Source of the DNA: a virus
IMG/VR virus record: IMGVR_UViG_3300025405_000260
Coordinates: 1 to 44,500 of that record
Direction: 5' to 3' (one strand)
Length of the DNA: 44,500 nucleotides
Position numbers and translations under genes: made by a program
Shown: piece by piece, positions 2,683 to 35,655 of the stretch
How the letters are laid out: every line of letters starts with the position of its first letter
How positions within the stretch are numbered: the stretch's first letter is position 1
The notes under the pieces: model-generated
Told to the model about the DNA's origin: nothing
The model's input: only the letters and a program-made list of their open reading frames with translations
Database searches by the model: none

Positions 2683-3374
2683 TGTTTACTACTGCTGTAA
2701 AGACCTGTATTGTAGAAGCGTTAGTTTCTGGTTTTAATTCATTAAACCCAACTGGTTCCTACCCCTCTAGTACCTCTTTAGATTTAACGCCCAACAGTGT
2801 TACGATTGAATATCCTCTAGAGGAAGTTCAATGGCCTGCTCTCTTTGTTCAATTTAGACCCAGTAAGTCTCAATGGACTGGTCTTAATCCAACAACCTAT
2901 TCTGGAGCAGCAAGTCCTTGGACAGCATCAAGAGAAATCTATTTTGAGGGTGCTCTTGACTTCCAAATTTTAGCTATGCATTCAGAAGAACGAGATAGAC
3001 TTTGGGATAGTTTAAATAACCTTATCCTAATGAATGAGTTTTCCCCAGGTGCTACTGCATTCTACAATAGTATCAATCAAAATGATCTGGTGGGTATTAC
3101 CCTATTATCCAGTACAGTACAGAGTCTAGGGGATACAGTTTCTCCTGGCACTCCCTATAGTCCTGAAGAATTAACATATGAAGCTACCTTAAGAGTTCAA
3201 TGTGTAGGCGAAGCTTATGAGAATAAGTTTAGTCAATCTGTTCAGGGTATTTCAGCAGTAACAGTTAGTGGTGTCTTAACATTGGTTATAAATTCTCAAA
3301 ACCCATACGTACCCAATATTACAGCTACTACCTCCAGTGGAGTTATAGTTCCCAATTTTACTGTAACTTCATAA
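2682..3374 (+). CDS. Putative tail terminator-like protein
   Basis: A 230-residue protein coupled to the previous gene through TAATG. It has an alpha/beta pattern: an N-terminal helix (VKTCIVEALVSGFNSL), then strands including the WPALFVQFRP segment, and a helix around HSEERDRLWDSLNNLIL. That layout is common in tail terminator proteins that sit directly upstream of the sheath gene in myoviruses. The last 45 residues add a Val/Thr/Ser-rich Ig-like tail. No specific residue motif proves the function. Confidence 0.45.
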   Translation: MFTTAVKTCIVEALVSGFNSLNPTGSYPSSTSLDLTPNSVTIEYPLEEVQWPALFVQFRPSKSQWTGLNPTTYSGAASPWTASREIYFEGALDFQILAMHSEERDRLWDSLNNLILMNEFSPGATAFYNSINQNDLVGITLLSSTVQSLGDTVSPGTPYSPEELTYEATLRVQCVGEAYENKFSQSVQGISAVTVSGVLTLVINSQNPYVPNITATTSSGVIVPNFTVTS

Positions 3375-3383
3375 TTTTAAACA

Positions 3384-3396
3384 TTGTAATTTACAA
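3384..3396. promoter_or_regulatory. Palindrome upstream of the sheath gene
   Basis: TTGTAA-T-TTACAA is a perfect 6-1-6 inverted repeat in the 56-base gap before the sheath gene. A weak promoter-like pair (TTGTAA, 18 bases, CATAGT) overlaps it. It could be an operator or late promoter element, but AT-rich palindromes of this size arise by chance. Confidence 0.25.
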
Positions 3397-3430
3397 GATA
3401 ACTAATGCATAGTAATGTAAGGAGAAGTCT

Positions 3431-4921
3431 ATGCCAAATCCCATTCCCGGTTACACAAACCCTGGTGTCTACGTAACACAATCGACGTTACCTAATATTG
3501 GTGCTATCTCTAGTACAACTCTTAACACTCTTTTCCTGGCTTCTGTTCCTTCCGGTAACTTTCCAACTAGTAGTAATCAGGATGTTTTTAAGGTCAATAG
3601 CACTAGTCCTCAAACTTTTACTTTAAGTCAGAGTGGTACAATTAGTAGCTTTGCTGTTACAAATAATACCTATGGTAACTCCTATTCTATTAGCGGTTCT
3701 GGTACTACTGTAGCTTCTGGTTTTAACATTGCAACACCTACAACAAGTGGTAATGTTACAGTCTTTACAGTTAGTGGTCTTCCAGCTAATACCTGGTTAA
3801 GAGCCAGCTACAGCTACACTACCTGTACACCTTCAACGATGTACACCTTCTCAGATTTTAATAGTTTGCAATCTGTTTTTGGCCCTGCTTTCTCTTATGT
3901 AAACGGAACGCCAACAGTTACTTCACCGTGCACATTGGCCGGTTACCTTGCCTTTATTAATGGTGCCTCCCTTGTTAGCTGTATGAACATTACACAAACA
4001 GCTAGTGGTGTTACCAATCCTGGTGTTGACCTTATTACTGGTATCTATGGAACATTAAATATCCCAGGTATTGATGTATTTGTTCCGCTGGGTATGGACA
4101 CAACCTACCTTACAGCTGGACAGTCTAGTGGTCCATTGTTTAGCCAACTTTCTTCATTCCTCCAAGCTCAAGCCTACAATGGTGTCTACCAGAGAGCCTT
4201 TATTGGACTTAACCAGGCTGTTGCAAGTGGTACCAATCAGAGCCTTATCAATACCTGCACATCTATTATTGGTGACACCAACAGTAACTCAAGAATGTCT
4301 CTTGTAGCTCCTCAAACTGTTAACTACAATGTTGGATTAAGTTCAACAACAGGTACAGTTACAGGCGTTGTCCCAGTTGATGGTTTCTATATGGCTGCTG
4401 CGGTAGCTGGTTTGTATGCTGGTTTGCCCAATGTTGCTGTTCCACTTACCAATAAGTACATCAATGGATTCTCTGGTATTAGTAACCAACTTACAACAGC
4501 AGATTCTAATACATTGCAATCTTACGGTACACTTATTATTAGACAAAATAATGTTGGCGCATTGAGAATTAGACAGGGTCTTACCACCAATGTTTCCAGC
4601 TGGCTTACTCAGGAAATATCAATTAGTTCTGTAGGTGATGCATTAAGTAAGCAATTGAGTTCTGCATTACACAATAGTGGATTAATTGGTTCGCCATTAA
4701 GCGTAGCTACAATTAATGGATTACAATCAGTTGTAAATACAACCTTAGGTAAAGCTGTTTCATCAGGCCTTATTCAAGCTTTTTCTAACCTAAGTTATTC
4801 ACAAAATCCCAGTAATCCTACAGCAGTTAATATTACTTTTAGCTACTCACCAACAATTCCGTTGAACTACATTAATGTGAATTTGACGGTTGACTCTAGT
4901 ACCGGAACAGTTACGTTCTAG
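3431..4921 (+). CDS. Contractile tail sheath protein
   Basis: A 496-residue protein with a strong AAGGAG ribosome site about 8 bases before ATG. It begins with the sheath-type motif GYTNPGVYV, and its C-terminal 120 residues (IRQGLTT, the helix with VNTTLGKAV, ending in strands with a PLNYINVNLTV motif) follow the pattern of phage sheath C-terminal domains that interlock neighbouring subunits. A Ser/Thr/Gly-rich insertion at residues 40-130 probably forms the outer variable domain. The next gene is tube-like, which is the normal sheath-tube order. This gene defines the virus as a myovirus. Confidence 0.88.
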   Translation: MPNPIPGYTNPGVYVTQSTLPNIGAISSTTLNTLFLASVPSGNFPTSSNQDVFKVNSTSPQTFTLSQSGTISSFAVTNNTYGNSYSISGSGTTVASGFNIATPTTSGNVTVFTVSGLPANTWLRASYSYTTCTPSTMYTFSDFNSLQSVFGPAFSYVNGTPTVTSPCTLAGYLAFINGASLVSCMNITQTASGVTNPGVDLITGIYGTLNIPGIDVFVPLGMDTTYLTAGQSSGPLFSQLSSFLQAQAYNGVYQRAFIGLNQAVASGTNQSLINTCTSIIGDTNSNSRMSLVAPQTVNYNVGLSSTTGTVTGVVPVDGFYMAAAVAGLYAGLPNVAVPLTNKYINGFSGISNQLTTADSNTLQSYGTLIIRQNNVGALRIRQGLTTNVSSWLTQEISISSVGDALSKQLSSALHNSGLIGSPLSVATINGLQSVVNTTLGKAVSSGLIQAFSNLSYSQNPSNPTAVNITFSYSPTIPLNYINVNLTVDSSTGTVTF

Positions 4922-24815: not shown

Positions 24816-25217
24816 TTGAGACGTTTTATTTTAGCAACTGTTGTTGTAGCAAGTACAATGTTGTTCCCTACAACTGTAGAAGCAAAGACGAGCAAAGAAG
24901 TAACCACGTTAGCATCGCGTAAAAAGGTGCATCATAAATTAATTAAAGCATTACAACCTGCAGTAAATATTCCAAGAGCAATCATGGAAGAATGGTACAA
25001 AGTCAACATTTGTGAAATGGGTGGAACCTGGCATAGTGTCGGTCCCATTTACAGTGGTGGTCTAGGTATGAGAAATATTAACTGGATAGCATATGGTGGC
25101 TTAAAGTTTGCCCCAAATGCAGGATTAGCAACACCAGAAGAGCAAGTCTATATTGCTCGTAAGATCGAAGGCAGTAACTATGTCCCCGATCAAAATGGTT
25201 GCGGACAGGGATGGTAA
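24816..25217 (+). CDS. Secreted Rpf-like (resuscitation-promoting factor) muralytic enzyme
   Basis: A 133-residue protein with a TTG start behind AAGGAGAGATC. Residues 1-23 are a signal peptide with a hydrophobic core and a VEA cleavage site. Residues 60-133 match the Rpf transglycosylase-like domain: ICEMGGTW with E67 as the expected catalytic glutamate, YSGGLGM, WIAYGGLKFAPNAGLAT, and a final Cys (C129) able to pair with C66. Rpf enzymes cut peptidoglycan and belong to Actinomycetota. Here it may help lysis or loosen the wall of slow-growing hosts. It has no separate anchoring domain. Confidence 0.78.
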   Translation: MRRFILATVVVASTMLFPTTVEAKTSKEVTTLASRKKVHHKLIKALQPAVNIPRAIMEEWYKVNICEMGGTWHSVGPIYSGGLGMRNINWIAYGGLKFAPNAGLATPEEQVYIARKIEGSNYVPDQNGCGQGW

Positions 25218-25227
25218 AGGATAATAA

Positions 25228-25449
25228 ATGACAAAAAAGTATGATAAGATTCATCGTGAGATTATGGACTATATCCTCTCTGGTGAAATGCACTCAACCT
25301 TGATTGGAATGATGATTAGTGTAGATAGTAGCACTAAGAGTAATGACATTAAGAGTGTTAAGCAATTTGCAGAATACGTAGTCAACCTCATTGCCAAGGC
25401 AGAAAAGTTTGCTAAGGACAATGTAAAGATTAAGGCAACTAACAAGTAG
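25228..25449 (+). CDS. Small hypothetical protein, 73 residues
   Basis: It begins 10 bases after the Rpf-like gene with AAAGGATAAT as ribosome site. The product is Lys-rich and mostly helical (YDKIHREIMDYILSGEMHS, then VKQFAEYVVNLIAKAEKFA), with no membrane segment or signal peptide. It is likely cotranscribed with the Rpf-like gene. Function unknown. Confidence 0.65.
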   Translation: MTKKYDKIHREIMDYILSGEMHSTLIGMMISVDSSTKSNDIKSVKQFAEYVVNLIAKAEKFAKDNVKIKATNK

Positions 25450-25460
25450 CTATGTAAGGA

Positions 25461-25605
25461 TATTTACCGACGTCATCGGCACTCGGACTAGGTAAATAGG
25501 TAGGCGTTATCTCCACATAATCCGCCACGTCTACCGGCAAGAAGGATACATGGGTTAAGAGTTGAGTCGGCGTTCAGGCCTAGACTCCTCTTAACCCCCT
25601 TCTTG
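25461..25605 (+). ncRNA. Structured non-coding RNA with three consecutive helices
   Basis: No gene occupies 25450-25648. Three helices are visible. (1) TATTTACC 25461-25468 pairs perfectly with GGTAAATA 25491-25498. (2) GGTA-GGCG-TTAT 25499-25510 pairs with ATAA 25517-25520, CGCC 25523-25526 and TACC 25532-25535. (3) CAAGAAGG 25538-25545, GGGTTAAGAG 25552-25561 and GAGTC 25564-25568 pair with GACTC 25583-25587, CTCTTAACCC 25588-25597 and CCTTCTTG 25598-25605, giving 23 pairs. Helix 3 followed by TTTATT could also end transcription of the Rpf-like operon. No known RNA family is recognised. Confidence 0.62.
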
Positions 25606-25613
25606 TTTATTCC

Positions 25614-25642
25614 TTGAATTTTCTATATAGACCAATTATTAT
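25614..25642 (+). promoter_or_regulatory. Promoter, TTGAAT-N17-TATTAT, leaderless start
   Basis: The -35 at 25614-25619 and -10 at 25637-25642 are 17 bases apart, with an ATG six bases after the -10 at 25649. It begins just downstream of the structured RNA and would drive the 38-residue gene and the ligase-glycosyltransferase run. Confidence 0.65.
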
Positions 25643-25648
25643 AGTTAT

Positions 25649-25765
25649 ATGGAAAAAATTACGGTAGTAGTAGCAGGAAATTTTATTCAGGAAGTCCTGG
25701 AAGATTTTGTAGTAAATTTTAGTAAGTCAGATAAGCTTATCGGAGTAGATGAGGAAAATGAGTAA
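25649..25765 (+). CDS. Very small protein, 38 residues, leaderless
   Basis: ATG lies six bases after a -10 box and no ribosome site precedes it, so it fits a leaderless start. The product is acidic (VEQ-poor, with a VLEDFVVNF helix and VDEENE tail). Its stop at 25763-25765 overlaps the start of the DNA ligase gene, so it may act partly as a translational lead-in for the ligase. No family is recognised and translation is a prediction. Confidence 0.5.
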   Translation: MEKITVVVAGNFIQEVLEDFVVNFSKSDKLIGVDEENE

Positions 25766-26702
25766 ACAAGAATTGATGTTGGCTAAGACAACATCAGTAG
25801 AAAGTATTGAAACAGAAAAAGAATTCTGGAAAGATTACTGGCTTGAGCCAAAGTTAGATGGCATGAGAGCGGCTGTATTAAAAGAGGGTGACAAGATTAC
25901 CATCTATGGTCGTAGTCATATGGAATACCAGGACCATGTTCCCCATCTGGTAGAAGCCTTTAAGGCTATTCCTCTAGATTACTTTCATCTAGATGGTGAA
26001 CTCTGTTATGTTACTAGTACCCAAGAGGTTCAAGGCAAACAGGTTCCTATTGTTGACTTTAATAAAACGATGAGAGTAATGGGTTCTAATTTTGATGTTG
26101 CTATTGAAAAGCAGATTGAATCTGGTTATATCTCCTTTATTGTTTTTGATACGATTGACCCAGGGGTTTTCTATAAGAGTAGAGTAGAAGATCTCAATAT
26201 TCTTCCAGAGTTAACTCAATCTAAATATATCAAGCGTATTCCTGTATTTGAGTTTTGGAGTATTGACACCTATAATAGATTAATAGAGTTAGGTGTTGAA
26301 GGCGCTATGCTTAAGAATGTTAATTCTCTGTATAAATCTGGCCGACCTAATAAAACGATGTATAAGATTAAGAAAGAAGAAACGTATGATGTCGTGGTCT
26401 ACGAAGGCTATGAAGGAACGGGTAAGCATACTGGAAGACTTGGTGGCCTTAAATTCGGTGCTTATCTCCCAGATGGAACATTTAAGAAGGTTGGAAGAGC
26501 CGGTGGTGGATTTAACGACGCCGAAAGAGAAGAAATCTGGAACAACCTCGATTCCTACCTTGGAAGAGTTATCGAAATTAAATGCAACGAAACCGTTGGT
26601 TCCAAAGAATATAGAACCCCAAGACACCCACAATTCCTCAACTGGAGAATTGACAAAGAGCCACTGGCATGTACGATGGAACAATTTAAAGTAAATGATT
26701 AA
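25749..26702 (+). CDS. ATP-dependent DNA ligase
   Basis: A 317-residue protein if started at the first ATG (25749). A second ATG at 25758, preceded by GAGGAAA, is an equal candidate. Nucleotidyltransferase motif I is EPKLDGMR, with K35 the adenylated lysine. Motif III is YFHLDGELCY, motif IV EGAMLKN, and motif V YKIKKEETYDVVV. A C-terminal OB-fold follows with FKKVGRAGGGFNDAE. Size and motifs match short phage ATP ligases that seal nicks during replication and repair. Its start overlaps the tiny leaderless gene. Confidence 0.88.
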   Translation: MRKMSKQELMLAKTTSVESIETEKEFWKDYWLEPKLDGMRAAVLKEGDKITIYGRSHMEYQDHVPHLVEAFKAIPLDYFHLDGELCYVTSTQEVQGKQVPIVDFNKTMRVMGSNFDVAIEKQIESGYISFIVFDTIDPGVFYKSRVEDLNILPELTQSKYIKRIPVFEFWSIDTYNRLIELGVEGAMLKNVNSLYKSGRPNKTMYKIKKEETYDVVVYEGYEGTGKHTGRLGGLKFGAYLPDGTFKKVGRAGGGFNDAEREEIWNNLDSYLGRVIEIKCNETVGSKEYRTPRHPQFLNWRIDKEPLACTMEQFKVND

Positions 26703-30440: not shown

Positions 30441-30465
30441 TTAATCTTTTTAATCCCATTATACT
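30437..30465 (+). promoter_or_regulatory. Promoter, TTGATT-N17-TATACT, -35 contains upstream stop
   Basis: The -35 at 30437-30442 includes the GT17 stop TGA. The -10 at 30460-30465 is 17 bases downstream. ATG follows six bases after the -10, giving a leaderless start at 30472. A 9-bp inverted repeat flanks the -10. Confidence 0.72.
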
Positions 30466-30480
30466 TTTGGTATGGGATTA
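30451..30480. promoter_or_regulatory. Operator-like 9-bp inverted repeat around the -10 box
   Basis: TAATCCCAT (30451-30459) and ATGGGATTA (30472-30480) are perfect inverted copies separated by 12 bases that hold the -10. The right arm contains the start codon. Arm centres are 21 bases apart, two helical turns, so a dimeric regulator could bind one face. The left arm is upstream of the predicted transcript start, so this works as DNA and not as an RNA hairpin. Confidence 0.5.
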
Positions 30481-35419: not shown

Positions 35420-35426
35420 TTAGATA

Positions 35427-35455
35427 TTGATTTTCATTAGAATCTTTATTATAAT
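35427..35455 (+). promoter_or_regulatory. Strong promoter, TTGATT-N17-TATAAT
   Basis: The -35 at 35427-35432 and a consensus -10 at 35450-35455 are 17 bases apart. It lies 8 bases after the stop of the previous gene. Transcription should begin near 35462, giving a 5' leader of about 190 bases before panD. Confidence 0.8.
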
Positions 35456-35469
35456 TAAAGTATAAATAG

Positions 35470-35514
35470 TCAAAAGTTAAGGTTTTTACCTCCATTTCGA
35501 CCTTAACTGTTTGA
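35470..35514 (+). promoter_or_regulatory. Leader hairpin 1 (possible attenuator/terminator)
   Basis: TCAAA-AGTTAAGG pairs with CCTTAACT-(G bulge)-TTTGA, 13 base pairs, with an 18-base loop, followed by TTATTTTA. It could work as a weak terminator or attenuator soon after the promoter. GC content is low, so termination is uncertain. Confidence 0.55.
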
Positions 35515-35522
35515 TTATTTTA

Positions 35523-35563
35523 GTCCTGGGGATTTTCTTTCCTTCCTTCCGTTGCCCCAGGAC
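35523..35563 (+). promoter_or_regulatory. Leader hairpin 2 with pyrimidine-rich loop
   Basis: GTCCTGGGG pairs perfectly with CCCCAGGAC around a 23-base loop rich in C and T. The loop segment TTTCCTT (35538-35544) is complementary to AAGGAAA in the panD ribosome site (35647-35653), so a loop-SD contact is possible. Confidence 0.58.
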
Positions 35564-35568
35564 GAATC

Positions 35569-35636
35569 GTAGCTGTAGTATAAAAAAGTATTACATCCCT
35601 AGTTGGGAGATGTAGGTGCAAGTCCTACCAGCTACA
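35569..35636 (+). ncRNA. tRNA-like structure in the panD leader
   Basis: GTAGCTG/CAGCTAC is a perfect 7-bp acceptor-type stem, and GTAGG-TGCAAGT-CCTAC a perfect T arm with a 7-base loop. The expected D arm reduces to three pairs and lacks the GG of a normal D loop. The anticodon arm (TCC/GGA closing a CTAGTTG loop) is short and lacks a purine after the anticodon. It is either a degenerate tRNA or a tRNA mimic, not a reliable functional tRNA. Confidence 0.5.
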
Positions 35637-35655
35637 CTGTTGTAGAAAGGAAAAT

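Follow-up and report, generated by a model that had tools for sequence, protein, structure and literature searches.

A bulged hairpin that follows the virion/lysis genes of an uncultured phage, referred to here as hairpin B, has a structure that is maintained by selection, as seen from compensatory changes among related phages. It is an RNA family absent from Rfam, supported by covariation, and probably a variant of the hairpins that stand at operon ends. Judged from the sequence, there is about an even chance that the element containing it is, in this phage, the terminator or 3'-end hairpin of the virion/lysis operon.

Genomic setting

The window, i.e. the whole 44.5-kb virus record analysed here, has its main genes from the left end to position 25449 all on the + strand. 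The co-directional genes upstream of the element span approximately 25 kb and include those for tail sheath, baseplate wedge and minor tail proteins, and the gene order just before the element is an SNF2-like helicase, an Rpf-type transglycosylase and a 73-aa ORF, the last of which had no match in Pfam or PHROG. Beyond the element, whiB (at 26695) follows a ligase gene, and glycosyltransferase genes come next. Because the nearest named phages by helicase (24–28% identity) infect Rhodococcus, Gordonia and Mycobacterium, the hosts of these phages are probably actinobacteria. The element starts 11 bases past the stop codon of the 73-aa ORF and ends 8 bases short of a promoter. Downstream on the + strand there are just three strong matches to a leaderless promoter, and this is one of them. 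The location given in an initial annotation, between the Rpf gene and a leaderless promoter, is borne out by PF06737 upstream and by TTGAAT-17-TATTAT and the ATG at 25649 downstream; the sequence and coordinates given there were likewise correct. The features of this region are:

24816–25217, + strand: Rpf-type transglycosylase gene (PF06737, E 2e-11)
25228–25449, + strand: 73-aa ORF, last gene of the virion/lysis run, 5' of the element
25461–25498, + strand: helix 1, 8 bp, UAUUUACC/GGUAAAUA; near chance and seen in the window only
25499–25535, + strand: hairpin A (helix 2 of the initial annotation), short, just 5' of hairpin B; identified by shuffle test and relatives
25538–25605, + strand: hairpin B (helix 3 of the initial annotation), the conserved core; identified by fold (z -6.4), homologues, covariation and the match of an independent model
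25538–25545/25598–25605: hairpin B, P1
25546–25551: hairpin B, 5' bulge AUACAU
25552–25561/25588–25597: hairpin B, P2
25562–25563: hairpin B, UU bulge
25564–25568/25583–25587: hairpin B, P3, GAGUC/GACUC
25569–25571/25578–25580: hairpin B, GGC/GCC with a 6-nt loop
25581–25582: hairpin B, 3' bulge UA
25606–25611, + strand: U-rich tail UUUAUU, terminator-like, directly 3' of the stem (its U score falls within the highest 4% of positions in the window)
25614–25642, + strand: sigma-70-type promoter TTGAAT-17-TATTAT (-10 at 25637–25642)
25649–25765, + strand: 38-aa ORF with a leaderless start 6 nt past the -10 hexamer, overlapping the ligase start
25749–26702, + strand: ATP-dependent DNA ligase (PF01068, PF02467), first large gene 3' of the element

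Other structured sites were seen as well. Window positions 35420–35655 are a structured gap in which a promoter-like TTGATT-TATAAT is followed by a pair of hairpins, AGTTAAGGT...ACCTTAACT and GTCCTGGGG...CCCCAGGAC; the latter has a long loop rich in pyrimidines, and a tRNA comes next, at 35569. A second leaderless-type promoter, TATACT followed by 6 nt and ATG, lies at 30450–30480 inside the inverted repeat AATCCCATTATAC...GTATGGGATT. In the related contig L002, a GC-richer gap of 202 nt between the helicase and Rpf genes (3286–3487) is possibly another structured RNA.

Two hairpins in the gap

The + strand gap between the stop of the 73-aa ORF (25449) and the leaderless ATG (25649) folds strongly. 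Positions 25461–25605 reach -56.9 kcal/mol, against -36.6 +/- 4.1 for shuffled sequences (z -5.0, with none of 200 shuffles as low), and most prominent is hairpin B, at -35.1 kcal/mol and z -6.4. No shuffle of 1000 equalled this value, confirming the 23-bp interrupted helix of the initial annotation, which we resolve into 8, 10 and 5 bp with a 6-nt 5' bulge. Hairpin A also exists (z -3.5, 0 of 1000 shuffles), but not in the form first drawn, 12 bp with a CUCCAC loop; at minimum energy it has 9 bp around an open loop of 19 nt. The proposed 8-bp helix 1 fared worse, since 50 of 1000 shuffles equal it (z -1.9) and no counterpart was recognised in any relative examined; its 3' strand overlaps a UAGGUAA stretch common to some relatives (L066, L088). 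It is true that helix 1 meets helix 2 at 25498/25499, but with no helix 1 recognised in relatives their coaxial stacking has no support outside one sequence. What had been described as a three-helix RNA is therefore a two-hairpin element plus an unsupported helix 1, found only in this phage and near chance.

Hairpin A occurs in most relatives as a variable short hairpin 5' of hairpin B (e.g. GAAG.GAGCU/AGCUC.CUUC, GAAG.GGGC/GCCC.CUUC and GAGGGG/CCCCUC). Its region has z below -1 in 13 of 20 copies and a mean z of -1.3, compared with -3.3 for hairpin B, and it could not be aligned reliably across clades. There is further variation around the two hairpins: L091 and L094 have an extra hairpin between A and B, P1 of L050 encloses both hairpins, and a helix that would enclose the entire element (P0) is good in L012, L018 and L020 and missing from others. 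That the element codes for protein was rejected, as the frame that runs open through it in L008, L012 and L023 is closed by stops in L009, L018 and L020.

Distribution among related phages

Searches with the ligase, helicase and glycosyltransferase proteins gathered about two dozen distinct related contigs. A matching hairpin B follows the helicase/Rpf/73-aa gene block in all 20 distinct related metagenomic phages examined, and a hairpin with the same tip follows the helicase in every distinct contig spanning that region, the exceptions being L030, a contig that breaks off within the helicase, and the distant, differently arranged L082/L083. When contigs were scanned at full length, each had one copy, in the same place and orientation. 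Two outgroup copies (L091, L094) are too diverged for the covariance model and were recognised by eye, more weakly, from their position, a UUG bulge and an AGCU...AGCUCC tip. The phages carrying hairpin B are large and uncultured, with contigs of up to 133 kb.

The initial annotation could name no RNA class for the element, and the Rfam search agrees, with no match there at the gathering threshold or up to E 10. Among 50,697 phage records, similar DNA was limited to chance short matches to the window element, and a sister-clade copy had no DNA match. The model found nothing convincing in the complete genomes of Rhodococcus phages Finch and E3, Gordonia phage Skog and mycobacteriophage Shrimp, and searches with helicase or WhiB returned no relatives in host genomes. 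Context-free matches to the tip pattern in IMG/VR outside the clade were dismissed as chance, coming from contigs without a matching hairpin.

The most constant part of hairpin B is its tip. In (nearly) all 20 copies P2 ends in GRG, followed by a 2-nt 5' bulge UY, a G (often with a bulged Y) and AGUC or a close variant; the 3' side, after a variable loop, is GACU(C) or a variant and then CYC. This is not a kink-turn, which was considered and set aside: the UY bulge is followed by Watson–Crick pairs, not a 3-nt bulge with tandem sheared G-A pairs. In the sister clade, there is almost no variation in the 5' bulge, CCUGGUCUU, or in P2 (L009:6935–6943 and the same place in 11 other copies), and the window, with AUACAU, is wholly different there. 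This has the look of a site for binding or pairing that was acquired or lost as the clades diverged.

A free-standing non-coding RNA of about 150 nt, as the initial annotation had proposed, is not supported. A stable small RNA of 100–150 nt acting in trans would suit the compact, very stable fold and the conserved unpaired stretches, but we consider it improbable: the element keeps to the end of the operon, its unpaired bulge differs between the two clades, and no promoter is recognisable 5' of it in the window or in 16 of the 19 other copies, the remaining three having marginal 9-of-12 matches. An operon-end element fits better, given the 11 bases that separate it from the preceding stop codon and the 8 bases that separate it from the following promoter.

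Covariation in hairpin B

When 18 copies are aligned to the model, pairing holds in 97.5% of cells. Both sides have changed at 13 of 23 pairs, in 39 cells, while shuffles gave 9.9 +/- 2.8 and none of 500 was as high; sliding one strand by 1–3 columns lowers the paired cells to 40–67%. As the model was built from 17 of the same 18 copies, the alignment is biased toward the structure. An independent model, made from the 12 sister-clade copies only, finds the window element in the expected place (E 6e-6), and also L055 (E 1e-9), L086, L088 and L002 (3e-4), ahead of anything else. The helicase tree requires at least 37 changes of pair type; where P2 ends in GRG/CYC, A-U and G-C have replaced each other four times independently at the middle pair. 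Sequence variation that breaks the pairings had been named as grounds for abandoning the structure; for this helix, variation instead preserves the pairs.

The same data speak to a function in DNA, such as a cruciform or a replication or packaging site. A long inverted repeat present once per genome is what one might expect of it, but G-U pairs occur (one P4 pair is G-U in five copies), the bulges are on fixed strands in constant orientation to transcription, and the other strand folds more weakly (in L002, -31.4 vs. -43.0), leaving this explanation very improbable.

Two clades, with and without tail and promoter

The helicase tree places the window with L002, L050, L055, L086 and L088 (class I) and makes the other 12 copies (class II) their sister, with L091 and L094 as outgroup. 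In class I, a sigma-70-type promoter begins 2–9 nt past the stem in the window, L002, L055, L086 and L088, and is leaderless in all of these except L002; L050 has a -10 only. The U-tail is good in the window, L002, L088 and the outgroup L094 (no more than 4% of positions are as high), with TTTTT of L094 scoring above all positions; it is fair in L086 and poor in L050, L055 and L091, the last having A rather than U. The window's own U tract is imperfect (UUUAUUCC), and a simple terminator scan, which cannot handle bulges or mismatches, did not flag the element. Since class membership follows the tree, the association of tail and promoter does not consist of independent events.

Class II is the most conserved, with 89% identity per column and helicases only about two thirds identical to that of the window. 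Its tail is near background in most copies, no sigma-70-type promoter was found up- or downstream in any of the 12, and whiB lies directly 3' of the element, without a Shine-Dalgarno sequence. Termination is therefore unable to explain the whole family, and for class II a regulatory leader or processing site is as likely as a terminator. The clades with and without tail and promoter constitute a natural experiment on the hairpin's other roles.

Two observations concern the start of whiB. An AU-rich stretch, AUAAAUAUUAUGG-like in several copies, precedes the whiB ATG in L008, L009, L012, L014–L018, L020, L064 and L066. In L023 (7061–7156), and also in L079 and L090, whiB is without the usual start codon past the element; followed upstream, its frame meets no stop across the entire hairpin and reaches a GTG that overlaps the small ORF's stop codon, so that in this lineage the whiB coding region may contain the element.

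Role of the element

The reading of the element as a terminator or 3'-end hairpin draws on class I, in which hairpin B usually has a U-rich tail and stands 2–9 bases before a sigma-70-like promoter. In the window a gene run closes with a stable, GC-rich hairpin, and the initial suggestion that part of the element may terminate transcription is supported as likely by the stem, U-rich tail, position and adjacent promoter. As polymerase leaves the 73-aa gene, hairpin A would form first in the transcript, followed by the long hairpin B, whose GC-rich stem with UUUAUU would most likely bring about intrinsic termination in this phage; the stem would then cap, and may protect, the 3' end of the mRNA. 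Eight bases further on, the new sigma-70-type promoter would give a leaderless mRNA for the ligase–WhiB–glycosyltransferase operon, and the hairpin would thereby insulate the virion/lysis operon from the next. In this role it marks the end of the virion/lysis operon, making it a site at which to study the separation of transcription units and the use of leaderless promoters.

Plain termination is presumably not the sole job, given the invariant UY bulge and tip and the conservation of class II without tail and promoter. Termination needs no invariant tip, and the conservation of GRG-UY-G(Y)-AGUC...GACU-C, a UY bulge under a 4–5 bp cap, thus suggests that it is bound by something, probably a phage or host protein. 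A broader proposal, which we put forward only tentatively, is that the family comprises cis-acting phage RNAs with an invariant tip for which the phage or the host has a dedicated reader protein, the ancestral form being a terminator ahead of a leaderless promoter and class II a whiB leader. If true, class II would represent conversion into a promoter-less, Shine-Dalgarno-less leader controlling the phage WhiB regulator.

Alternatively, the element could be a regulated leader where the whiB/glycosyltransferase operon begins: an attenuator that can be switched, or an antitermination RNA, resembling put or the whiB7 leader, with a tip-bound phage or host factor deciding whether polymerase passes. 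Class II argues for it, as all 12 copies are without a promoter between element and whiB, the ATG comes approximately 10–40 nt past the stem with no Shine-Dalgarno sequence, bulge and tip are almost invariant, and upstream sequence could pair with the P1 5' strand in L015, L016 and L017. However, some copies do not preserve this alternative pairing, the search of this phage turned up no antitermination gene, and the window's downstream operon has its own promoter past the element; we regard this explanation as unlikely, though not negligible. A somewhat less probable one is RNA processing, in which a host RNase III-like enzyme would cut the bulged stem and part the virion/lysis mRNA from the downstream mRNA. 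The stem of approximately 23 bp with asymmetric bulges, kept in both clades with or without a promoter, is consistent with such cutting, which would also explain function without a U-tail; on the other hand, the stem is interrupted by bulges, and the part that is invariant across clades is the tip, not the stem sequence.

Comparison with known systems

RNase III sites lie between early T7 genes as long bulged hairpins, and hairpin B resembles them in being a long bulged hairpin between phage genes; it differs in its conserved tip and single copy. The class II copies, as structured RNAs ahead of whiB, recall the mycobacterial whiB7 leader attenuator, whereas the window element is not directly ahead of whiB; of the features of such a leader, no consistent or conserved leader peptide ORF was found, and alternative pairing was found in some copies only. 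The put RNA of HK022 is a cis-acting antitermination RNA, and the likeness to it is one of architecture: both consist of paired consecutive hairpins, carry conserved bulges and lie where a phage transcription unit meets the next. Our element is at an operon end, with a promoter following it in the window. From the intrinsic (Rho-independent) terminators at phage operon ends, the element differs by its conserved bulges and tip sequence and by the second hairpin in front, and class II copies differ further in lacking U-tail and promoter. With these terminators it shares a GC-rich stem closing a gene run and, in most of class I, a promoter just behind; a U-rich tail is seen in the window, where it is imperfect, and in L002, L086, L088 and L094.
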